Shown piece after piece: positions 16,393 through 27,003 of a stretch of 42,074 bases of DNA. Each line of letters starts with the position of its first letter. Position 1 is the first letter of the stretch. The DNA is taken from the NCBI GenBank assembly GCA_024404875.1, contig JAKSPK010000018.1, forward strand, positions 1-42,074, written 5' to 3'. The position numbers were made by a program, and so were the translations under genes. The stretch is from Oscillospiraceae bacterium. GTDB lineage: Bacteria; Bacillota; Clostridia; Oscillospirales; Ruminococcaceae. Below the pieces are notes generated by a model that saw only the letters and a program-made list of their open reading frames with translations, was not told where the DNA came from and made no database searches.

Positions 16393-16926
16393 TTATGCAC
16401 GGTTTCTTTTGGCATCAAACTCCGCACAGCTTCGCAGATAGCGCAGTTCATAGCCGAGAAACCATGCAGCGGCGGTAAGGAGCGGCGGAAACGCCATGAG
16501 CCATCCGCGCAGCGGCTCGACTGCGGAAAACGGCTCTGCACCGCCGGTAAGCAGCCGGTGGATCTGGATGAACGGCGCATTCAGCAGCGGGAACAGATTC
16601 AGCATCAGCGTGCTTTCGGGATTCAGGCGCAGGAGCAGATAAGTCGCGCAGGCAGGCAGCATCGAGCAGAGCGCGATGAGCAGCGGCTTGACAGGTTTTG
16701 TGCGCTTGCCGGATGTGCGGTAAAAAACTGCATCCTCGTCAGCGGTTTTCTGCGCGGCATTGCCGATCAGTAGGATATGTGCCGCCGCGCCGAACAGAAT
16801 GCCCGCGCCGCGGACGATGACGGGATTACGCAGGATCGCGATCGAGATGCCGAGGATGAGGCATAGGATCTCTGAGATCAGCAGCCATCCGAAGCAGACT
16901 GCGAGGTGTTTTCCGAAACGGTTCAT
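16393..16926 (-). CDS. Small integral membrane protein of unknown function
   Basis: A 177-residue protein I do not recognise. It has about four hydrophobic segments (about residues 9-32, 38-54, 81-98 and 145-158), a basic loop between them (RTSGKRTKPVKP) and a charged C-terminal tail (ELRYLRSCAEFDAKRNRA). The start follows GGAGG and a strong promoter lies upstream. It is followed by pdaA in the same direction, so a cell-envelope or sporulation context is possible but not shown. Confidence 0.75.
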   Translation of the reverse strand: MNRFGKHLAVCFGWLLISEILCLILGISIAILRNPVIVRGAGILFGAAAHILLIGNAAQKTADEDAVFYRTSGKRTKPVKPLLIALCSMLPACATYLLLRLNPESTLMLNLFPLLNAPFIQIHRLLTGGAEPFSAVEPLRGWLMAFPPLLTAAAWFLGYELRYLRSCAEFDAKRNRA

Positions 16927-16966
16927 ATTTCCTCCGGTGGAAGCAATGTATTTTCAGGTATTATAT

Positions 16967-16995
16967 ATTATACATGATTTTCACAGGATTGTAAA
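16967..16995 (-). promoter_or_regulatory. SigA-type promoter of the membrane protein-pdaA unit
   Basis: TTTACA (16995-16990), 17 bp, TATAAT (16972-16967) on the minus strand, about 40 bp before the start at 16926. Confidence 0.75.
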
Positions 16996-17063
16996 GTATG
17001 GCGCTGAAAGTTTTGGATGCTTCCATAAAATACGGAAAATCCGCTGCGAACCCTGCGGAATGC

Positions 17064-17092
17064 TTGACGAAAACCCGAAATTGAGATATAAT
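17064..17092 (+). promoter_or_regulatory. SigA-type promoter of rpe
   Basis: TTGACG (17064-17069), 17 bp, TATAAT (17087-17092), about 45 bp before the rpe start. Confidence 0.85.
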
Positions 17093-17137
17093 ATACAATG
17101 TATGTACCAAAACAGTTTTTCAAGGAGGATCATTTCG

Positions 17138-17782
17138 ATGATATCAGCATCCATTCTCAACGGCGATCTTGCACATCTGGCAGAGGTCGCGGAGCTTGTC
17201 AGGCACGCCGGTGCGGATGCACTGCATTATGATGTGATGGACGGATGCTTTGTCGATAATCTCTCTTTTGGGCTGCCCGTTCTGGAAATGCTGCGCCGCT
17301 GTACGCAGATGCCGATCGATGTGCATCTGATGATCACACAGCCGCACCGTTTTGCGGAGCGCTTTGTGAAAGCGGGTGCCGATCTGCTTTCCTTCCACAT
17401 CGAAAGCGATACCGATCCGGCGGAAACGCTTCGGATCATCCACAGTCTCGGTATTCCCGCAGGCATTGCGGTTTCACCGGAAACACCGGCGGAAGCGGTT
17501 CTGCCGTATCTGCCGCAGATGCAGAAGGATGATTTCATTCTCGTTATGACAGTCCGGCCGGGGCTGGGCGGTCAGGCGTTCATGCCGGAGACCGTTCCGA
17601 AGATCCGGATGCTTCGCAGCATCATCACCGAAAATCAGCTTCCGCTGCATATCGAGGTGGACGGCGGCATTAATGCTGAAACCGCAAAGATCTGCCGCGA
17701 GGCCGGAGCGGATTATCTCGTTGCGGGTTCCTATCTGCTCGGCGCGGCCGATCCCGCAGCAGCCGTGAAGAGTCTCTTATGA
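17138..17782 (+). CDS. rpe: Ribulose-phosphate 3-epimerase
   Basis: A TIM-barrel enzyme of 214 residues that interconverts ribulose-5-phosphate and xylulose-5-phosphate in the pentose phosphate pathway. Family marks are SILNGD at the start, LHYDVMDGCFVDN (metal His and Asp), DVHLMI, a VRPGLGGQ loop in place of the common VNPGFGGQ, and EVDGGI with the second catalytic Asp. The start was set at the ATG after AAGGAGG and 40-odd bases after a consensus promoter; the frame is open further upstream but runs through the promoter. Its stop overlaps the stop of the convergent mecA-like gene by 6 bp. Confidence 0.94.
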   Translation: MISASILNGDLAHLAEVAELVRHAGADALHYDVMDGCFVDNLSFGLPVLEMLRRCTQMPIDVHLMITQPHRFAERFVKAGADLLSFHIESDTDPAETLRIIHSLGIPAGIAVSPETPAEAVLPYLPQMQKDDFILVMTVRPGLGGQAFMPETVPKIRMLRSIITENQLPLHIEVDGGINAETAKICREAGADYLVAGSYLLGAADPAAAVKSLL

Positions 17783-18337
17783 GCTGAGTATCCGCGTAAC
17801 TGCGTCACGGTCAAAGATACACTCGCCGTATTCGGTCAGGCGTGCTTTGCCGAGCGCGGAAAGCCGGTAGGGACGGCCGTATTCCATAAGGATATGATGC
17901 ACTGTCTGTGCGCCGTTTCTGCGCAGACCGAGCGACAGCACGAATGCCCCGCGATATCGGCATAGAATACTGCTCCGGACAGTCTCCGCATGATGCCGGA
18001 GCTGGCCGCAGCACTCGCGCAGCGCCTCCTTGTCGGTGAAACGCGCCGCAAGTCTGACCGGATCCTTCCGGCTTCTCTTGAGCTTTTCCGGCTGATCGGG
18101 ATGCGCAGTGAAATAGACAGCGAGACTGCCGTTTTGTGCGCGCAGCAGTTCGACGGTCACAGGCATCTGCGAAAACGGGATGCCGCTGACGCGCTCGGCC
18201 TGTGTGAGCATAACGGCAAGCAGCCGCATCATCTGCGGCGAATCGGGAGCGGCATCCGGCTCCGTCACTAAAAATTGCAGTTCCTCCGCTGAAAGAATGA
18301 CCTTCACGGAGCGGGCTGAGAGCCGGTGTACGGTCAT
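17777..18337 (-). CDS. MecA-like adaptor protein
   Basis: A 186-residue cytosolic protein that resembles MecA, the adaptor that delivers substrates to ClpC. The N-terminus (TVHRLSARSVKVILSAEEL) has the MecA pattern in which a short basic start leads into an IKV-L-s-EDL-like motif. The C-terminal half (about 105-186) has the other hallmark, an aromatic/Gly strand (CRYRGAFVLSLGLRR) and EYGRPYRLS ... LTEYGECIFDRDAVTRI, matching the EYG repeats of MecA. The start follows GGAAAGGA. It runs divergently from the Rnf-like operon with 65 bp between starts. Identity is low by eye, so its partner could differ from classical MecA. Confidence 0.7.
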   Translation of the reverse strand: MTVHRLSARSVKVILSAEELQFLVTEPDAAPDSPQMMRLLAVMLTQAERVSGIPFSQMPVTVELLRAQNGSLAVYFTAHPDQPEKLKRSRKDPVRLAARFTDKEALRECCGQLRHHAETVRSSILCRYRGAFVLSLGLRRNGAQTVHHILMEYGRPYRLSALGKARLTEYGECIFDRDAVTRILSS

Positions 18338-18402
18338 GGCAGACGATTCCTTTCCGGCGGATCCCGCCGCATTCAAATACCCGAAAGGCGGTGCTTCGTG
18401 CA

Positions 18403-19356
18403 ATGCAGACCAAAACACATTCAGCGATCCTTTTTGACCGCACCGCGGCACTCGCCGCACTGCTTTGCACCGCAGTTTACGATTACGGTATCCGCATCCT
18501 GCTGCTTGCAGCGGCAGCGATCCTCGCCTCGCTGACAACGGAGCGGATCTGCACGGCACTGCGCCGTCAGCCGTTTACCCGCAGCAATCTGGATGCGGCA
18601 GTCAGCGGCGTGATACTGATGATGCTGATGCCGCCGACGATATCGGTGTCACTGCTTATCATGTCCTGTATTTTCGGAAATATCATCGGCCGGCAGGTTT
18701 TCGGCGGCAGGAAAAATCCGGTTCTGCCTGCTGCTGCTGCCGGATATGTATTTGCACTTTGCAATGCGCGGACGCAGATGACAATGTTCCCTGCGTCAAA
18801 GGGTGTACTTCCGATTTGGCAGATCGACGAAAGTACGCTGGTTTCCGGCATTTCGGAGACATTTTCGCGCAGCGGAAAAATCGCAGGGAGCGTGACCGAT
18901 CTGCTGACCGGACTGCCCGCGCAGCCGGTCGGGACAGGCTCGGTCGTGCTGCTGATTGTCATTGCAATCGTCCTGATGCTGCGGCGTTCGGCATCGGCAT
19001 TTGTACTGCTGCCTTCGGTTCTGGTCTGCTGCATCACGAATGTGCTGCTCTCCGACCTGCGGCATCCGGTTTTGACGCTTGCGGGCGCATTGCTTTCTCA
19101 TCAGTTTTTGTTTGCAGCGATCTTTCTGCTTTCCGATCCGGAATTTTCACCGCCGCAGACGGCCGGCATCTTTTTCGGAATGATCTGCGGTATTGCAGCT
19201 GTGATGCTGACACGGTTTTTATATGTGTACGATGCGCCGGTACTGTTGTCTGTACTGCTTTCGCCGCTCGGCGTGATCCTGCGGTATGTCATGCGGGATG
19301 ATCCGCCGGCGGCGGTCTCAGCGAGAGAGGACGGTGATCTGCATGAAGCGTCCTGA
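18403..19356 (+). CDS. Divergent RnfD/NqrB-like membrane protein
   Basis: A 317-residue protein with about eight to ten hydrophobic segments. It matches the RnfD layout: SNLDAAVSGVILMMLMPP (61-78), a FGGRKNPVLPAAAAG loop (100-114), a short extramembrane part, VTDLLTGLPAQPVGTGS (164-180, compare dLFLGnvPGSIGETS) and LLSDPEFSPPQTAGIFFGM (242-260, compare atDPvTSP...GKiiFG). In real RnfD the covalent FMN sits on the Thr of SGAT; here the aligned place reads SGIS (148-151), so a Ser at most. The ATG at 18403 follows AAAGGCGG. It is first in an operon with RnfE-like, RnfA-like and DUF4015-like genes. Confidence 0.72.
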   Translation: MQTKTHSAILFDRTAALAALLCTAVYDYGIRILLLAAAAILASLTTERICTALRRQPFTRSNLDAAVSGVILMMLMPPTISVSLLIMSCIFGNIIGRQVFGGRKNPVLPAAAAGYVFALCNARTQMTMFPASKGVLPIWQIDESTLVSGISETFSRSGKIAGSVTDLLTGLPAQPVGTGSVVLLIVIAIVLMLRRSASAFVLLPSVLVCCITNVLLSDLRHPVLTLAGALLSHQFLFAAIFLLSDPEFSPPQTAGIFFGMICGIAAVMLTRFLYVYDAPVLLSVLLSPLGVILRYVMRDDPPAAVSAREDGDLHEAS

Positions 19357-19903
19357 CAGAGATCTGCTTTGTCTGCTGCCTGCTGCACCGATCGCTGCTT
19401 TCTGCACCTCGCTGCGGGAGAGCCTGCTGCTGAGCCTTGCATTCTGCATCATTACAGCACTGACCGTGCTTTTCTCGACACTGATTCCGCGCAGTCTTCC
19501 GCGCTCTGTCCGTACCGTATTGTATTCCGTTATGGGCAGTTTGGTGTATATCCCGGCGGCACTGATCTGCTTCAGCTGCTTTCCGGATCTCAGCATGGGT
19601 ATCTGGATTCCGCTGCTGGCCGCTTCCGTGTATCTCAATGCCGCACATGATGCGGTGTTCCTGAAGGGACATCTGCTGAAGCCGCTGCTGAAGCTTCTTG
19701 CGGGCGGAACGGCTGCGGCGCTTTTGTCCGGCGCTCTGCGCGAACTGCTCGCTTCCGGCACGGTCTGGGGACGGACATTGCTGCCGCATCCGCCGCTTCC
19801 GATTTTGCTGGAGCCTTCTGGGGGCATGATGCTGCTGGTATTGTTTGCAGCAGTCTGCGGCGCATTCCGGCAGAGTGTGCGAAAGGAGGGGCCTTCATGC
19901 TGA
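19343..19903 (+). CDS. Divergent RnfE/NqrD-like membrane protein
   Basis: A 186-residue, six-helix-type membrane protein overlapping the previous gene by 14 bp. The RnfE signature can be followed: LLCLLPAAPIAAF at the first helix (compare GLCPaLAvT), FPDLSMGIWIPLLAASVYLN (80-99, compare ...LGIYIPLIvvNC) and GALRELLASGTVWG (130-143, compare gaiREllGsGTlfG). In Rnf and Nqr each of the two small half-channel subunits gives two Cys to an intramembrane [2Fe-2S] cluster. Here both aligned positions lack Cys (LLP and AAS), so the cluster should be absent. The role is unknown. Confidence 0.7.
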   Translation: MKRPDRDLLCLLPAAPIAAFCTSLRESLLLSLAFCIITALTVLFSTLIPRSLPRSVRTVLYSVMGSLVYIPAALICFSCFPDLSMGIWIPLLAASVYLNAAHDAVFLKGHLLKPLLKLLAGGTAAALLSGALRELLASGTVWGRTLLPHPPLPILLEPSGGMMLLVLFAAVCGAFRQSVRKEGPSC

Positions 19904-20460
19904 TCGCGGCTGATTTGGTGCTGATCCTTTTGCAGAGTCTGTTCTTTACCGATCTCGTCGGCATCTCCTCTGTTTCCCGCGCTGCAAAGGGGAAATATAC
20001 GCTGCTTCTGCACGGCCTGCTGGTTATGCTGTTCTGCATCCTGAGCGCCGGGCTGACGGCGGCGGTGCGCGGGATGATCCCGAAGAATATGCAGGTATTG
20101 CTGTTTCCGCTGCTGAATGCGGCAATCTGCGGAATTGTCTGCCTGATGGTCTGCGTGATATTACGGAAGCTCAGCAGGAAGCATTATGTCCGCATCGCAC
20201 CGCAGATTCATGCAGCGGCCTGCTCCGGTGCCGTTCTCGGCACTGTCTTGCTTAGCATGGGCCGGACAACGGCAGCAGCCGCGTCGATGCGTTTCGGGTT
20301 CGAGACAGGGCTCGGCTATCTCGGAGCCTGCGCTGCATTGATGCTTGCGATGCCTGCGCTGCGCAGTGAGCATATCCCGGAAAGTCTGCGCGGGTGGAAG
20401 GCGATTTTTCTTTATGCGGCCATGCTCTCCATGACAGCCGCCTGCCTGTTTCCGAACTGA
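19897..20460 (+). CDS. Divergent RnfA/NqrE-like membrane protein
   Basis: A 187-residue membrane protein of about six helices, overlapping the RnfE-like gene by 7 bp, with an AAAGGAGG ribosome site. It fits the RnfA/RnfE family by layout: LLQSLFFTDLVGISS at the first helix (compare ILGICPFLGVS), LLFPLLNAAICG (68-79, compare YLPLITTNCAVLG), and ETGLGYLGACAALMLAMPALRSEHIPES-like ending (compare ...tlalvlmAGIRErle...vP). Both cluster Cys positions are replaced, although a Cys lies three residues after the second. Its job in the operon is unknown; it probably pairs with the RnfE-like protein. Confidence 0.65.
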   Translation: MLIAADLVLILLQSLFFTDLVGISSVSRAAKGKYTLLLHGLLVMLFCILSAGLTAAVRGMIPKNMQVLLFPLLNAAICGIVCLMVCVILRKLSRKHYVRIAPQIHAAACSGAVLGTVLLSMGRTTAAAASMRFGFETGLGYLGACAALMLAMPALRSEHIPESLRGWKAIFLYAAMLSMTAACLFPN

Positions 20461-20490: not shown

Positions 20491-21816
20491 GTGAAACATA
20501 GAAAAAAGGGAAGAAAGCTGTTTACCTATCAGGCGAAGAACCGCCGTATTTTCAGTGAATATCATCCGGTGCGCAATGCGGTCGGAACACTGCTGATGCT
20601 TGTCATTATGGCAGGGCTCGGCATTGTCGGCTATAACATCGTCGGGCCTGTCGTAACGCGGATCCGTACCGAGGAAAGCAATCCAACCCTTACGCCGGAG
20701 CCGTATTTCACCGAGACACAGCCCGTTCAGACGGAACTGATCGCAGAGGCTGTTACAACGACGGCAGAAGTCACGACAACGGTCGTCCAGACAACGACTG
20801 CTGTCACAACGCGCCGCAGTGCAAAATTTCCGGAGGATACGGTCGTTGCATACTATACATCCGCCGATGTGCTGACCGATCTCGATATGTTGGAGAATGC
20901 GGCGAAGAAATGCGCCGACAGCGGTTATACAGCGATGATTCTGCCGATGAAGGACGATATCGGAATTTTGCACTATGCGACTGCATCCGAAAGGGCGAAG
21001 CAGTGCGGCGCTGCGAATGACAATCTGTTGACGCTCCGCGAAATTCGCAATGCTGTCAGCCGCTATCAGATTAACTGTATCGCGGAATTCTATACATTGA
21101 CTGACCGGACCTACCCGAATACATTCAACGACGGCTCCTATGTGTTCCTCGACGGCAATACGCGCTGGCTCGACAATGCGCCGGAGGAGGGCGGAAAGCC
21201 ATGGCTGAATCCGTTCAGTCAGGGGACATGGGATTATCTCGCGGGGCTTGCGAATGAACTGACTGCCGGCGGGATCTCGCAGATCATCTGCAAGGGAACG
21301 GTCTTTCCGCATTTCTATCCGACCGATTCCGATTTGCTCGGCGGGCAGATCAATGATCCTGGTGAACGCAAGACTGCGTTGCTGAATACGCTGAATACGA
21401 TCGCTGCCGCAGCGCCGGGCGCTGGATTGTATGTGGATGGCAAAGCACTCACGAATGGCCTGGAGGAAGCCTTTGACATCGACCAGCTTTCGATGGGGAC
21501 GGTCTTTGTGGAGATTGATCCCTCGGCATTTACGGAGCCGTTCACGGCCGTCGGGGAACGCTATGATCCGGGCACACTCGCATTCCGGGAGAAGATGCTC
21601 ATGCTGACCGATGCGATGCAAAAGGCAGTCGGCGGCAGAGTGATGATTCCGTGTCTGCGGGAGGACACGATGACGCCGCAGGAGCTTCATATTGCGATCG
21701 AGGCGCTTGCCGAGGCAGGCTGCCGGACGATCCACATTTATCCGGCAGAAGAGCCGGCGGATGAAAACGCAGCAGATGCAGCGCTGAACGATGGCGTACA
21801 GCAGGAGGCAGCATAG
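20491..21816 (+). CDS. Membrane-anchored putative glycoside hydrolase (DUF4015-like)
   Basis: A 441-residue protein with a basic cytosolic start (KHRKKGRK), one membrane segment (about 29-50), a Thr-rich spacer (about 70-105, repeats of TTT and TTA) and an outside domain from about 110. The domain resembles the TIM-barrel DUF4015 putative glycosyl hydrolases: a VAYYTSADVL start, YTAMILPMKDDIGIL, WLNPFSQGTWDYLAGLANEL and ISQIICKGTVFP. In these families acidic residues on the barrel strands would act on sugar polymers, but I cannot assign catalytic residues here. The start is GTG after AGAGAGGAG. It is the last gene of the Rnf-like operon, 30 bp downstream, where rnfB would normally be. Confidence 0.75.
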   Translation: MKHRKKGRKLFTYQAKNRRIFSEYHPVRNAVGTLLMLVIMAGLGIVGYNIVGPVVTRIRTEESNPTLTPEPYFTETQPVQTELIAEAVTTTAEVTTTVVQTTTAVTTRRSAKFPEDTVVAYYTSADVLTDLDMLENAAKKCADSGYTAMILPMKDDIGILHYATASERAKQCGAANDNLLTLREIRNAVSRYQINCIAEFYTLTDRTYPNTFNDGSYVFLDGNTRWLDNAPEEGGKPWLNPFSQGTWDYLAGLANELTAGGISQIICKGTVFPHFYPTDSDLLGGQINDPGERKTALLNTLNTIAAAAPGAGLYVDGKALTNGLEEAFDIDQLSMGTVFVEIDPSAFTEPFTAVGERYDPGTLAFREKMLMLTDAMQKAVGGRVMIPCLREDTMTPQELHIAIEALAEAGCRTIHIYPAEEPADENAADAALNDGVQQEAA

Positions 21817-21961: not shown

Positions 21962-22008
21962 GAACCGTGCAGGATCAATGCACAGTTCAAAGGAAAGGAG
22001 AAATGGTG

Positions 22009-22239
22009 ATGCTGCCTGATCAGACCACACCGGCAAAGCCGGAGGGCGTCTTCCCCGCAAGACTGACGCTCGCAATGGCATATGTACCGTATCAGTGCTG
22101 GGAAGAACCTGCGGAAGCGGCCGAAGCACTTACGCAAGGAACGGTTTTTCCGTCACTGGTGAAGCCCTTCATGGCAGGGAAAGGAGGAAACGGCAATGGC
22201 GATGCAGTCGCGGTCTTTGGACAAAATGGAAAGGGCTGA
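22009..22239 (+). CDS. cotJA: Spore coat-associated protein CotJA
   Basis: A 76-residue protein with the CotJA pattern: LAMAYVPYQCWEE ... EALTQGTVFPSLVKPF. CotJA is needed with CotJC for assembly into the inner spore coat of bacilli. I set the start at the ATG at 22009, eight bases after GGAAAGGAG; an in-frame ATG at 22003 is too close to the ribosome site but cannot be excluded. The end overlaps cotJB by 44 bp. Confidence 0.88.
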   Translation: MLPDQTTPAKPEGVFPARLTLAMAYVPYQCWEEPAEAAEALTQGTVFPSLVKPFMAGKGGNGNGDAVAVFGQNGKG

Positions 22240-22480
22240 GCTGCTGCGGGTGGTGCAGATGCATCAGTTTGCAATGCAGGATCTTGCGCTTTATCTTGAT
22301 ACGCATCCTACCGATGAAACTGCGCTGGAGCATTTCATGCAGCATAAGGCCCTCTGCGAGCAGGCATCGAAGGTCTTTGCAGCGCGGTTTGGTGCGCTGA
22401 AAATGGAGCAGACCGGAACGGAAAACGGCTGGGCTGCGTGGAGTAACACGCCGTGGCCGTGGGATATGGAGGCGAACTAA
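22196..22480 (+). CDS. cotJB: Spore coat protein CotJB
   Basis: A 94-residue protein of the CotJB family: MERAELLRVVQMHQFAMQDLALYLDTHPTDETALEHF, with the Glu/Asp-rich helix pair, and a Trp/Pro-rich end (WSNTPWPWDMEAN). It starts after AAGGAGG inside the end of cotJA and ends immediately before cotJC. A second in-frame ATG lies two codons downstream. It acts with CotJA and CotJC in the spore coat; its own biochemical role is not known. Confidence 0.9.
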   Translation: MAMQSRSLDKMERAELLRVVQMHQFAMQDLALYLDTHPTDETALEHFMQHKALCEQASKVFAARFGALKMEQTGTENGWAAWSNTPWPWDMEAN

Positions 22481-23125
22481 ATGTTCCAGTATGAAAAAGC
22501 ACTGCAATACCCCGTGAAGATCACACGACCGAATGCTCGGCTCGCGAAGGCGATCATTTCGCAGATCGGCGGTCCTGACGGTGAACTCGGCGCATCCATG
22601 CGCTATCTGAATCAGCGTTATACGATGCCGATGCGGGAGCTGCAGGGCATCCTTACCGATATTGGGACGGAGGAGCTTGGGCACTTGGAGATGGTCTCCG
22701 CGTTGGTCTATCAGCTGACAAAGGGGCTGACACCGGAGCAGCTTGAAGCGCAGGGGTTCACGGATTATTTTGTGGATCATACGACCGGCATCTATCCGAT
22801 CGCAGCTTCCGGCGTACCGTTTTCTGCGGCGACCTTCCAGTCTACCGGTGATGCGCTCACCGATCTGCATGAGGATCTCGCGGCCGAACAGAAGGCGCGC
22901 ACGACCTATGACAATCTTCTGCGGCTTGCGGATGATCCTGATGTGCGTGATGTGATCCGCTTTCTGCGGGAGCGTGAGATCGTACACTATCAGCGTTTCG
23001 GTGAAGGTCTCCGTCTTTTGCAGGATCAGCTCGTGCGCAGTCCGCAGCCGGAGAATCCCTATGCCTACAACACCTCGTTCGATCCGATGCCGCGCCGCAT
23101 GAACCGGATGCGGAACAATATGTGA
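22481..23125 (+). CDS. cotJC: Spore coat protein CotJC, manganese-catalase family
   Basis: A 214-residue four-helix-bundle protein related to dimanganese catalases. Metal-site segments are visible: GGPDGELGASMRY, DIGTEELGHLEMV with the ExxH pair, DLHEDLAAEQKARTTYDNLL and REREIVHYQRFGE with a second ExxxH. It could detoxify peroxide in the spore coat; that activity is inferred from the family. The ATG follows the cotJB stop directly, with GGAGG inside the end of cotJB, so translation is coupled. The C-terminus ends with an Arg/Met/Asn-rich tail. Confidence 0.93.
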   Translation: MFQYEKALQYPVKITRPNARLAKAIISQIGGPDGELGASMRYLNQRYTMPMRELQGILTDIGTEELGHLEMVSALVYQLTKGLTPEQLEAQGFTDYFVDHTTGIYPIAASGVPFSAATFQSTGDALTDLHEDLAAEQKARTTYDNLLRLADDPDVRDVIRFLREREIVHYQRFGEGLRLLQDQLVRSPQPENPYAYNTSFDPMPRRMNRMRNNM

Positions 23126-23195: not shown

Positions 23196-25016
23196 TTATT
23201 CAAATGAGATGAGCTTTGCAACATTCTGGAGGATCAGTCCGGCATCATCTGTGTCGATCCGGCTGTCTCCGTTGACATTTGCATTTATTTTTCCCTGTGC
23301 CGTGAGAGTAGCTTCCGAATCTTCAGCAGCATACCGGCAGATAAGCACAGAATCGGCAACATCCACATCACCGTCTTCATTCGCGTCGCCTTTGCGTTGC
23401 CTGGCAGTGGTGGATTCGGTCGTTGTCTCCTGCTTCAGGGTTGTTGTGGGCGTATCCGTCTGATCAGTCAATACCGTTGTCGTTGTCTGCTGCGCCTCCG
23501 TCTTTGCGGTGGTTGTGACGGCAGGCGGCGTGGTCTCGACCGAGACTTCACTGCCGTGATTGCCTCCGATGGTACCGCCGTCGAGATTGCTGCCCTCAGT
23601 ATTCGCATAGTTGGCATAGAAATCGCTGAGCGAGATGCCGTTCGAGCCGAGCGCGACCTGATGATCCAGACCGATGAATTTCTTGGTCGTCTGTGTTTTC
23701 CAGATTGACGGATAATAATAGTTATCGTACTTTTCCGCATCCCAGTTGATCGTGGTCTGCGCCTGAATGTTTCCGTCTGCATCGCGCATTACGCCGAACT
23801 GGATATCCTTCCAGAGTCCGCCGGTATCGCCGGAGTCATCGTTCAGACACCAGAAGGTATGGTTGACATGATGCTTGATCATGTAATCGCGGAGCAGTCC
23901 CATCCATTTTTCGTTGTCGCCGCCGTCAAGTCTGCCGCCCCATTCGCCGATCAGGAGCGGATACTTGTCCTCTTCGACGAGATATGCCCATGTGTCATAC
24001 CAATAGTCATCGAGCAGCGTCTGTTCGGTGAAGTCCTTCTCGAACCATGTCTGCGCACTGACGACCGGGCCGTAGTCATGCGGGGAATAGACGATCTGGC
24101 TTGTGCCGGAGGTCGGCATGACAGGATATTTCTCGACGCCGCGGAGATTGCCGCCCCACCATGCGCCGTGTCCCTCAAATCCCTCGACACCTTCAATGAG
24201 GATCAGCGCATACGGATTCTTTTCGAGAATGGCATTTGCGCAGTCCTCGGCGGCCTTTTTCCAGTTATTCTCAGAAGTGGAATCGTTCCAGATTGCGTCG
24301 ACCGGAGCGCCGCCGTAAGTGCTGTGCGGCTCATTCTTGAGGTCGAAGCCGATCAGCGTATCGTCACCCTTATAATGGTCGGCACACCATGCGAGTGTCT
24401 CGATCCACACATCAGTTGTGACGGTGACTTTCTTGCCGTCTCTGCCGGTGAAGCCTTTGCCGTACCAGAGTCCGTAATTGTGGCCGGAGTTGTTGGATTC
24501 CGGGCTGTGAATGTCGATGAACGCCTTGATGCCGTATTTCTTGCACTTTGCGAGCAGGACATCAAAGACCTGCTGACTGTTCATGGTCGAGCCGTCGGGA
24601 TTGATGAGGTCGACATTGATCGGATAGTTCGGATCATCATTCGGATTGACACTCTGGATCGGATCGGGATCGCCGACCATCCAGTTGTAGAGCAGCTCGG
24701 TCGAGACCGGCAGACGCAGGACATTGACGCCGTGCTCTGCGATATCCTTGACCATATCGTCGATATCGCCGCTCCAGAGATAGTGCGGAACGCATTCGGT
24801 ACAGTTGAAGCCGAACCAGTTTGCGCCGGTCAGCCAGACTTCATTGCCGTTCTTGTCAAAGAGACGGCTGCCCTCTGCATGGAGCCAGTCATCGGCGGTG
24901 TTGTCGGCGGCAAAGACCGTCGGCAATGCGGCCGCAGTGTCAACCATGAGGCCTGCAGTAGCGGAGGCCGCGATGGCTGCTGCCAGACAGAGTGCTGACA
25001 GATGATGCTTTTTCAT
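23196..25016 (-). CDS. Secreted GH5 cellulase with C-terminal dockerin (second of tandem pair)
   Basis: A 606-residue exported endoglucanase-type enzyme. Signal peptide 1-about 37 (MKKHHLS start). GH5 catalytic domain about 42-470: WLTGANWFGFNCTE, RLPVS near 101, DIHSPESNNSGHN, acid/base Glu 229 in DLKNEPH, SPHDYGP near 311-317, and nucleophile Glu 358 in LLIGEWGG. The layout (NWFGF, LWSGD) recalls GH5 subfamily 1. A Thr-rich linker (about 495-542) leads to a type I dockerin (about 545-606) with two intact Ca-loops (DANEDGDVDVAD and NVNGDSRIDTDD). It should attach to a scaffoldin and cut beta-1,4-glucans. The ATG at 25016 follows GAGAGGGG. It is paralogous to the GH5 gene just upstream. Confidence 0.95.
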   Translation of the reverse strand: MKKHHLSALCLAAAIAASATAGLMVDTAAALPTVFAADNTADDWLHAEGSRLFDKNGNEVWLTGANWFGFNCTECVPHYLWSGDIDDMVKDIAEHGVNVLRLPVSTELLYNWMVGDPDPIQSVNPNDDPNYPINVDLINPDGSTMNSQQVFDVLLAKCKKYGIKAFIDIHSPESNNSGHNYGLWYGKGFTGRDGKKVTVTTDVWIETLAWCADHYKGDDTLIGFDLKNEPHSTYGGAPVDAIWNDSTSENNWKKAAEDCANAILEKNPYALILIEGVEGFEGHGAWWGGNLRGVEKYPVMPTSGTSQIVYSPHDYGPVVSAQTWFEKDFTEQTLLDDYWYDTWAYLVEEDKYPLLIGEWGGRLDGGDNEKWMGLLRDYMIKHHVNHTFWCLNDDSGDTGGLWKDIQFGVMRDADGNIQAQTTINWDAEKYDNYYYPSIWKTQTTKKFIGLDHQVALGSNGISLSDFYANYANTEGSNLDGGTIGGNHGSEVSVETTPPAVTTTAKTEAQQTTTTVLTDQTDTPTTTLKQETTTESTTARQRKGDANEDGDVDVADSVLICRYAAEDSEATLTAQGKINANVNGDSRIDTDDAGLILQNVAKLISFE

Positions 25017-25120
25017 GTTATTTCCCCTCTCGAAAATATGATTCCGTGCGCAGCACGGCGTTTGCGCCGGCGTCAGCGGCACCCGTTTCCGCTTCGGCCG
25101 TTCAGACCTTGTTTTGGCAT

Positions 25121-25176: not shown

Positions 25177-27003
25177 TTACTTCGGTGCGAGTTCCTGATA
25201 AGTGATGAGCTTAGCAACATATTTCAGGATCTTGACAGAGTCATCCATTACGATCTTTCCCTGACCGCTGACAGCTGCATTCAGCTTACCCTGTGCGGAA
25301 ATAACGGCAGTGTTGTCTTCCGACGCATAGCGCGCGATGAGAACAGCATCCGAAACATCCACATCGCCGCTGAGATCTGCATCGCCCCAGAGTGTCACGC
25401 TGGGAGACGTCGGAGCTTCTGTGACGGCGGTCGTCGTTTTTTCCGTGCCGGAGACTACCGGAGCATCCGTGACAGTGGGGATCGGATCGTCCTTGATGCT
25501 GCCGCCTTCGCCGCCGTCAAGATTGGAATTCTTGCCGGATGCGTAGAACTGATCAAGAGACATACCGTTCGAGCCGAGCGGAGTCTTGTGGTCAAGGCCG
25601 ATGTAGGTGCCGTCGGTTGTCTGCCAGAGGGATTCTTCAAAAAGCGCGTATTTCGTCTCGTCCCATGTAGAGAAGGTCGCATCGAGCAGGCCGCCGGTGT
25701 CGCCGGAGTTCGGATTCAGGCACCAGAAGGTGTGATTGATATGATGTTTGATCATGAAATCACGCAGCAGCTCCATCCATTGCTGGTTCTTGCCGGAATC
25801 CATATGGCCGCCCCATTCGCCGATCAGAAGGGGAGCGATATCTTCCAGATTGATATATGCCCATGTATCATACCAGTAATCGTCGAGGAGCGTCTGTGTC
25901 GTGAAGTCTTTTTTGAACCAGGTCTGCGGATAGACGGACGGGCCGTAATCATGCGGCGAATAGACGATCTGGCTTGTACCAGTGGTCGGTGTAACGGGAT
26001 GTTCGCGGACGCCTCGGAGATTGCCGCCCCACCAGGCGCCGTACCACGGGGACTTGTCAGCGGGAGCATCCCAGATATCGGGCGTATCGTAAGTATAGCC
26101 CATATCGGTCTTCGGATACTGCTCGACGCCTTCAATGAGGATCAGCGCGTTCGGATTGACCTTGAGGATCGAATTTGCGCACTGTTCCGCGGAATATTTC
26201 CAGTTGTTTTTCAGTTCGGTGTCATCCCAGCGGGCGATGTCCGTCGGGCAGGTTGTGCCGTCATAGCCGCGCTTGCCGTGCGGCTCGTTCTTGAGGTCAT
26301 AGGCGATCAGCGTATCGTCATTTGCATACTTTTTAGCGAGCCATGTCAGTGAGTCAATCCAGTCCTGCCATGAAACCTGATCACCCTGATTCGGACCTTT
26401 TTCCTTGATGGTTGCCATATCATCGGCGGTCTTGCTGGTGGGTTCATAGTACCACAGCTCATAGTTATGACCGGAATTGTGGGAGGCGGGGCTGTGGACA
26501 TCCACGAGGGCCTTGATGCCGTACTTCTTGCATTTCTGCATGATGACATCGAAGACCTCCATGCTGTTCATTTCGGAGCCGTCCGCGTGGCAGAAATCCG
26601 GATTGAATTTATATGCGTCCTCATTCTTCGGGTTCAGTCCCTCACAAGTATAGGGGCTGCCGTTCATCCAGGAGAGCAGGAGCTCTGAGGAGATCGGGAA
26701 GCGGATGATGTTGATGCCGCGGTCAGCGACCTGCGACAACAGCTTGTCAACATCGGCACTCCAGAGGCCGTGCGGGAAGTTCTCGGTACAGTTCATGCCG
26801 AACCAGTTTGCACCGGTCAGCCAGACTTCGTTGCCGTTCTTGTCAAAGAGACGGCTGCCTTTGGCGTGGAGCCAGTCATCGTTTCCGTCATCGGCAGCAG
26901 CGGCGGCATAGATTTCGCCGACCGCCGGCCCGGTGTGGTACAGTGCCGAGCCTGCTGTGATGACCGCTGCCAGAAGAACCGGCAGCAATGCTTTGCTTTT
27001 CAT
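25177..27003 (-). CDS. Secreted GH5 cellulase with C-terminal dockerin (first of tandem pair)
   Basis: A 608-residue paralogue of the downstream cellulase. Signal peptide 1-about 34 (ending near IYAAAAA). GH5 domain about 42-480: WLTGANWFGMNCTE, RFPISSELLLSW, DVHSPASHNSGHN, acid/base Glu 240 in YDLKNEPH, SPHDYGP (349-355), nucleophile Glu 396 in LLIGEWGG. An extra loop (about 295-322, YPKTDMGYTYDTPD) is absent from the sister. A short linker leads to a dockerin with an intact first Ca-loop (DADLSGDVDVSD) but a second repeat (AVSGQGKIVMDD) that has lost most Ca ligands. The start follows AGAGGGG. No clear SigA promoter is seen in the 106-bp gap upstream. Confidence 0.95.
   Translation of the reverse strand: MKSKALLPVLLAAVITAGSALYHTGPAVGEIYAAAAADDGNDDWLHAKGSRLFDKNGNEVWLTGANWFGMNCTENFPHGLWSADVDKLLSQVADRGINIIRFPISSELLLSWMNGSPYTCEGLNPKNEDAYKFNPDFCHADGSEMNSMEVFDVIMQKCKKYGIKALVDVHSPASHNSGHNYELWYYEPTSKTADDMATIKEKGPNQGDQVSWQDWIDSLTWLAKKYANDDTLIAYDLKNEPHGKRGYDGTTCPTDIARWDDTELKNNWKYSAEQCANSILKVNPNALILIEGVEQYPKTDMGYTYDTPDIWDAPADKSPWYGAWWGGNLRGVREHPVTPTTGTSQIVYSPHDYGPSVYPQTWFKKDFTTQTLLDDYWYDTWAYINLEDIAPLLIGEWGGHMDSGKNQQWMELLRDFMIKHHINHTFWCLNPNSGDTGGLLDATFSTWDETKYALFEESLWQTTDGTYIGLDHKTPLGSNGMSLDQFYASGKNSNLDGGEGGSIKDDPIPTVTDAPVVSGTEKTTTAVTEAPTSPSVTLWGDADLSGDVDVSDAVLIARYASEDNTAVISAQGKLNAAVSGQGKIVMDDSVKILKYVAKLITYQELAPK

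Follow-up and report, generated by a model that had tools for sequence, protein, structure and literature searches.

The window (the whole stretch of 42,074 nucleotides analyzed here) carries three overlapping genes, which encode RnfD-, RnfE-, and RnfA-like membrane proteins in this order, hereafter D, E, and A (Table 1). All three reading frames are open, and the arrangement of overlapping genes ordered D-E-A, as proposed in the initial annotation, is borne out by the coordinates together with the Pfam and PDB profile matches described below. The rpe gene is a conserved upstream neighbor of the trio and lies outside the machine itself. A MecA-like adaptor gene is inserted between rpe and D in the opposite direction; because its long open reading frame overlaps the start of D, its true start is probably located further in, and a MecA-like match was found somewhere in 48 of 118 loci of the family. 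The gene for a putative DUF4015 glycosidase begins 30 bases past A. Further downstream are a cotJ spore-coat set and two tandem GH5 cellulase genes, the first of which has a dockerin-like end scoring slightly below the Pfam cut-off; the tandem suggests a fiber-degrading host.

Table 1. Genes of the RnfD-E-A-like locus and its surroundings in the window.
Feature	Position	Strand	Remarks
rpe, ribulose-phosphate 3-epimerase	17138..17782	+	ATG at 17138; PF00834, E = 2.5e-64, on the longer ORF 16760-17782
MecA-like adaptor gene	17777..18559	-	PF05389, E = 1.7e-13
D, RnfD-like, 317 aa	18403..19356	+	alternative GTG start at 18391
E, RnfE-like, 186 aa	19343..19903	+	longer ORF from 19286; 14-base overlap with D
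A, RnfA-like, 187 aa	19897..20460	+	7-base overlap with E
DUF4015 putative glycosidase	20491..21816	+	PF13200, E = 1.5e-11; N-terminal hydrophobic stretch (by eye)
cotJA-cotJB-cotJC spore-coat set	21967-23125	+	cotJC Mn-catalase-like
GH5 cellulase (first)	23196-25082	-	
GH5 cellulase (second)	25177-27003	-	

D was assigned to the Pfam family NQR2_RnfD_RnfE (PF03116, E = 6.5e-34), and E and A to Rnf-Nqr (PF02508, E = 5.2e-9 and 4.9e-7, respectively), all three above the curated cut-offs, and these profile E-values rule out a chance resemblance to Rnf. When profiles made from relatives were compared with the PDB, each subunit found its own counterpart first, that is, RnfD for D (7zc6_D, 5e-63), RnfA for A (9eri_A, 8e-37), and RnfE for E (7zc6_E, 4e-31), with no unrelated membrane family on top. 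The NCBIfam rnfD, rnfE, and rnfA models also match the trio, far under their curated cut-offs, as expected for a divergent branch.

The same arrangement is widespread in the family. A search with the window A protein matched 129 of 197 family genomes (it also caught one canonical rnf locus, L099, and missed at least genome G006, which has the system), and the resulting set comprised 119 divergent loci plus the window, all from one family sample, of which 118 of 120 have a complete D-E-A trio. D, E, and A stand in this order on one strand in 118/118 complete loci, overlapping or nearly touching each other (median intergenic gaps of -17 for D-E and -4 for E-A). The rpe gene is located upstream in 114/118 loci, the other four having less than 2.5 kb of upstream sequence, and the DUF4015 gene follows A in 101/118, one of the other 17 (L190) stopping at a contig edge. 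Carriers include Clostridium methylpentosum DSM 5476, Massilioclostridium coli, and strains of Ruminococcus flavefaciens, and this family-wide occurrence rules out a unique oddity of the window genome. In a class-wide search 281/391 genomes matched, and the matches listed score mostly as canonical; among them were 30 loci, in which 29 classifiable A proteins divide into 24 canonical, four divergent ones of the same family, and one divergent one of another family (L289). The median dN/dS of sister pairs was 0.10 for D (35 pairs, maximum 0.21), 0.10 for E (38 pairs, maximum 0.29), and 0.09 for A (36 pairs, maximum 0.25), the window not being among these pairs and a few pairs representing the same genomes from two collections. 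The trio subfamily is thus under purifying selection.

The residues which ligate the intramembrane [2Fe-2S] cluster in canonical Rnf have been lost. Alignment to canonical proteins places Ser, Gly, Ala, and Val of the window at the positions A-Cys1, A-Cys2, E-Cys1, and E-Cys2, respectively, and so confirms the earlier statement that all four Cys are replaced. The positions by eye were less accurate: those proposed in A (FFT and NAA) were wrong and are rejected by the alignment, the aligned residues being the S of GIS (Ser24) and the G of CSG (Gly111), and those in E (LLP and AAS) were off by one or two, since the second A of PAAP (Ala15) and the V following AAS are aligned. In the canonical Rnf proteins from this family, both Cys positions are retained in A (30/30) and in E (31/31). 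Among the 118 divergent loci, by comparison, Cys was found in 0/118 at A-Cys1, 67/118 at A-Cys2, 0/118 at E-Cys1, and 0/118 at E-Cys2, so that any locus keeps one of the four at most. With three of the four gone in 118/118 loci, the loss is not a matter of chance. A named collection of 80 loci with 76 complete trios, which partly overlaps the 118-locus set, gave the same picture: A-Cys1 is Ser in 76/76, E-Cys1 and E-Cys2 are never Cys, and A-Cys2 is kept in 76/76, but the scan pattern itself required the last of these. A conserved His of A was considered as a new ligand; it occurs in 31/33 of the C-less loci (those without the RnfC-like gene described below) looked at first but in just 49/86 of the larger set, and was rejected.

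The flavin sites of D have been affected as well. In window D, SGIS stands in place of the canonical FMN motif SGAT, as had been read from the sequence by eye. MAFFT aligns the canonical FMN Thr with the G of SGIS, and a two-residue shift would make the replacement Thr to Ser; SGAT is missing under both placements. The FMN column is T in 21/21 canonical versus 9/118 divergent proteins, three of the latter nine reading TPA. SGAT or TGAT occurs anywhere in D in 5/118, and roughly in register in only 1/118 (L214, TGAT), which contradicts a survival of the motif. The residues of the riboflavin site, whose roles in NqrB and Rnf are treated in parts of PMC10643135 and PMC11889175, read Pro-Ser-Asp in window D versus the canonical Asn-Thr-Asp; that is, the Asn is lost, the Thr is replaced by Ser, and the Asp is kept. 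Both gate Phe residues are also kept in window D.

In 32 of 118 loci, D is preceded by an RnfC-like gene (hereafter C) in the same orientation, at touching distance in 25, and the DUF4015 gene lies downstream in all 32. The initial annotation had regarded rnfC, rnfG, and rnfB as missing, which is correct beside the window copy (none was found by Pfam among the neighboring genes) but does not extend to rnfC in these relatives. All 32 RnfC-like proteins have two CxxCxxCxxxCP [4Fe-4S] motifs, and the eight cluster cysteines are invariant among 22 aligned proteins. GGAGF, which we take to be the NADH/FMN motif of canonical RnfC, is present in that of L099 and in 0/32 of the RnfC-like proteins. A conserved acidic motif, DExDG ... 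DAxDDEPY, is found at the former NADH/FMN loop (L091, L092, L097, L098, L100-L102, and others) and represents a possible new ligand site.

The presence of C goes together with the riboflavin residues of D. The position of NqrB Asn200 is kept in 31/32 loci with the RnfC-like gene versus 18/86 without it (Fisher 1e-14, relatedness ignored), and that of Thr162 in 31/32 versus 30/86 (Fisher 2e-10, relatedness ignored). Counted along the tree, the Asn is present in 34/35 C-bearing loci, which fall into five groups including two genomes from outside the family but within the order, in 2/36 and 14/47 loci of two large C-less clades, and in two of three single C-less leaves (L197, L209, and L249). The Asp346 position, another riboflavin ligand, is D or E in 34/36 and 36/47 of the same two clades. 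The simplest reading is that D would have exchanged electrons with C via riboflavin until C was lost.

A full Rnf set elsewhere in the cell could have supplied the missing parts. None was found above cut-off in the window genome, a 2.37 Mb assembly that is 87% complete and whose missing sequence could hide some genes: it contains no PF02508 protein beyond those of the trio, no FMN_bind, and no ApbE, and only sub-cut-off fragments of RnfC (best 45 versus 246 bits needed) and RnfB (best 39 versus 69 bits needed). The same searches returned above-cut-off matches for RnfB, RnfC, FMN_bind, and ApbE in two genomes that carry canonical Rnf, run as positive controls. PF02508 matches occur in 182 of 197 family genomes. 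By hand count over the 197, four matches were found in 125 genomes, two with a strong best match in 27, two weak ones in 18 (including that of the window), one in six, three in two, five or six in four, and none in 15. Judging from the 125 genomes with four matches, most family genomes appear to carry canonical Rnf and the divergent pair together. Fourteen of the 18 weak-pair genomes were fetched at length, and 13 hold the full trio (e.g., G177, 97% complete), while G102 has only A. Since these 13 possess only the weak PF02508 pair, the trio does not need canonical RnfA/E, and the idea that it is an incomplete Rnf generally borrowing canonical parts is ruled out.

How the electron path was dismantled can be reconstructed in outline. 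Genomes G475 and G360, members of a different family within the order, carry rpe-C-D-E-A with a longer RnfC-like protein and no DUF4015 gene after it. A loss-only model needs five losses of C, and Fitch parsimony gives five changes with the root undecided or four with C absent from the root, on a tree whose deep nodes are weak (support 0.06, 0.24, and 0.39). We favor C as ancestral, because a second arrival of this RnfC-like gene at one and the same position would be unlikely and because the other family also has C. The C-bearing loci keep the [4Fe-4S] motifs and the riboflavin Asn, and the C-less loci have mostly lost the Asn, which suggests a stepwise stripping of the electron path. In the order of events that we propose, a duplicated Rnf operon would have settled beside rpe in the ancestor of this bacterial order, and RnfB, RnfG, the [2Fe-2S] cluster of A/E, the covalent FMN of D, and the NADH/FMN motif of RnfC would have been lost first. 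This would have left C-D-E-A as an intermediate, its C carrying two [4Fe-4S] clusters and its D probably riboflavin. At least two large lineages would later have lost C, with erosion of the riboflavin site of D. The end product would be a set of membrane proteins with no recognizable redox cofactor, which is selected as a subfamily.

The window copy itself is the most diverged. Its root-to-tip distance is the largest among 121, and none of the four Asn in front of the broken helices remains in it; in the 118 loci these Asn are kept in 115 and 113 cases in A and in 110 and 64 in E, at least three being kept in 107/118. Two genus-mates are reduced further. In G108, E and A have disappeared, and only D (L305:7364-8659, minus strand; PF03116, 2.4e-27) lies between rpe and the DUF4015 gene; an RnfD-like protein on its own is already unusual. 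G188 has no PF02508 match. In six fetched loci, rpe adjoins the DUF4015 gene with no trio between them. Judging from its root-to-tip distance, the four lost Asn, and the reduced genus-mates, the window copy may be fast-evolving or decaying.

There is strong support for the earlier inference of a membrane core that has ceased to serve electron transfer. The window lacks the cluster ligands, the FMN motif, and the riboflavin Asn; RnfB, RnfC, FMN_bind, and ApbE were not found above cut-off in the incomplete genome; and the loss of Cys is common to a conserved subfamily. We consider, at somewhat better than even odds (roughly 0.55), that the trio is an Rnf core stripped of its electron wiring which may work as a cofactor-independent transporter or ion-conducting unit, presumably with D, E, and A in one complex. 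Counting against a redox-free reading are A-Cys2 in 67/118 loci, T in the FMN column in 9/118, and Asp346 in most C-less loci. The reuse as a channel or transporter that the initial annotation suggested would fit the published folds and the purifying selection. The portions of PMC12174285 that deal with the folds place RnfD/NqrB among the relatives of ammonium and urea transporters, liken RnfA/E to symporters of the alternating-access type, and set out both proposed routes for Na+. The gate positions of NqrB are F or Y in nearly all D proteins of the trio (F338 in 116/118 and F342 in 117/118), and D may thus conduct via a fold like that of the urea and ammonium transporters with its Phe gate kept. 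The A/E pair may work by alternating access, alone or besides D. In the ion-pair network, Arg67 and Glu115 of E are kept in 97/118 and 76/118, respectively. RnfA Glu88, part of the network proposed for Na+, is lost in 118/118 (the Glu of the RnfA/E network is Cys in window A), and Thr111 is Phe in 99/118; judging from these two replacements, the published A/E route for Na+ is not preserved unchanged in the trio. From the kept gate and the altered ion-pair residues, we propose with moderate confidence a transporter or channel whose A/E path has been altered.

Other explanations deserve consideration, and the most serious is that the trio is a functionless remnant which is being lost, at least in the window genome. 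The lone D of G108, the lack of a PF02508 match in G188, the longest root-to-tip distance, and the six loci in which rpe adjoins the DUF4015 gene would all agree with decay. However, dN/dS is about 0.1 over 35-38 pairs (relaxed selection on the window copy, which is not included, is possible), gene order is conserved in 118/118, and the three frames of the window are open, so that we regard decay as unlikely, though worth keeping in mind for the window copy. It is improbable, in our judgment, that the trio, at least in its C-D-E-A form, is still a redox device with changed wiring, in which electrons would move between the [4Fe-4S] clusters of C and the riboflavin of D before reaching a quinone or an external acceptor. 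The C-bearing loci speak for such a device, with both cluster motifs in 32/32 RnfC-like proteins and the riboflavin Asn, and likewise the Thr, in 31/32, and NqrB passes riboflavin electrons to quinone in the account given in part of PMC12174285. It misfits the window, where no RnfC-like gene stands beside D, the riboflavin Asn is Pro, and the Thr is Ser; even the C-D-E-A loci lack the NADH/FMN motif and the A/E cluster.

Two further possibilities tie the trio to partners. A service to the DUF4015 glycosidase, for instance as an importer of its product or as an exporter or anchor of a cell-wall polymer, is suggested by the position of that gene directly after the trio in 101/118 loci, including 32/32 with C, and by fusions of DUF4015 to the YkyA domain, which is elsewhere fused to polysaccharide deacetylases (reported in a section of PMC12700454). 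But the gene adjoins rpe with no trio in six loci and was not found after 17 of the 118 trios; it is a frequent but separable neighbor, and we give this explanation little credence. Slightly less credible still is that the proteins are accessory or regulatory subunits of a canonical Rnf encoded elsewhere in the cell, forming a hybrid complex or acting as a decoy. Four PF02508 matches, probably of both kinds, in 125/197 genomes (hand count) would be expected from such a role, but the 18/197 genomes with the weak pair only include that of the window, and 13 of the 14 fetched hold the full trio.

Compared with the Rnf complex (RnfABCDGE; PDB 7zc6, 9eri, 8ahx), the trio has homologous D, E, and A in the same relative order, and an RnfC-like gene upstream in some loci; it differs in that RnfB and RnfG are missing from the conserved operon, the [2Fe-2S] Cys and the FMN motif are lost, and the riboflavin Asn is lost in the window. 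Na+-NQR (NqrA-F) shares the homologs NqrB, NqrE, and NqrD, and both gate Phe positions of NqrB are aromatic in the trio. NQR is thought to stem from a duplication of rnf and a loss of rnfB, as stated in a portion of PMC4014512. In Na+-NQR the electron input was replaced while the core cofactors were kept, whereas in the trio the cofactors appear to have been removed and no replacement was seen; neither NqrF nor NqrA was found among the scanned neighbors of the window trio. The Nqr/Rnf-like complexes are also reduced derivatives, with a D-like subunit that has no flavinylation threonine, and, according to parts of the two reports (PMC8238504, PMC10979944), they pair a D-NAD fusion with an FMN_bind protein and are regarded as redox devices. 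In contrast to these complexes of Meheust, the trio keeps E and A, its D has only PF03116 and no PF00175 NAD domain, and no FMN_bind was found in the genome. Kinship of RnfD/NqrB with the ammonium/urea transporter family is stated in the relevant portion of PMC12174285, and Pfam gave only PF03116 on D. In the open-access PMC literature, subscription papers being outside its scope, we found no account of a cofactor-free D-E-A core.

We tentatively suggest, at a little short of even odds, that a redox-driven ion pump has been turned into a new family of redox-free transporters whose intermediates are still living, in the forms C-D-E-A, D-E-A, and lone D. If this is true, ion conduction and electron transfer are separated along the series, which would bear on the dispute over whether Na+ is carried by RnfA/E, as argued in passages of PMC11889175, or by RnfD/NqrB, as argued in passages of PMC10643135. 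A conserved cofactor-free core, if it conducts, would allow the ion route and its residues to be studied apart from electron transfer. For annotation, the presence of RnfD-, RnfE-, and RnfA-like genes in Ruminococcus-like bacteria is not sufficient evidence of an Rnf complex, a warning that is relevant to models of the energy metabolism of gut bacteria.
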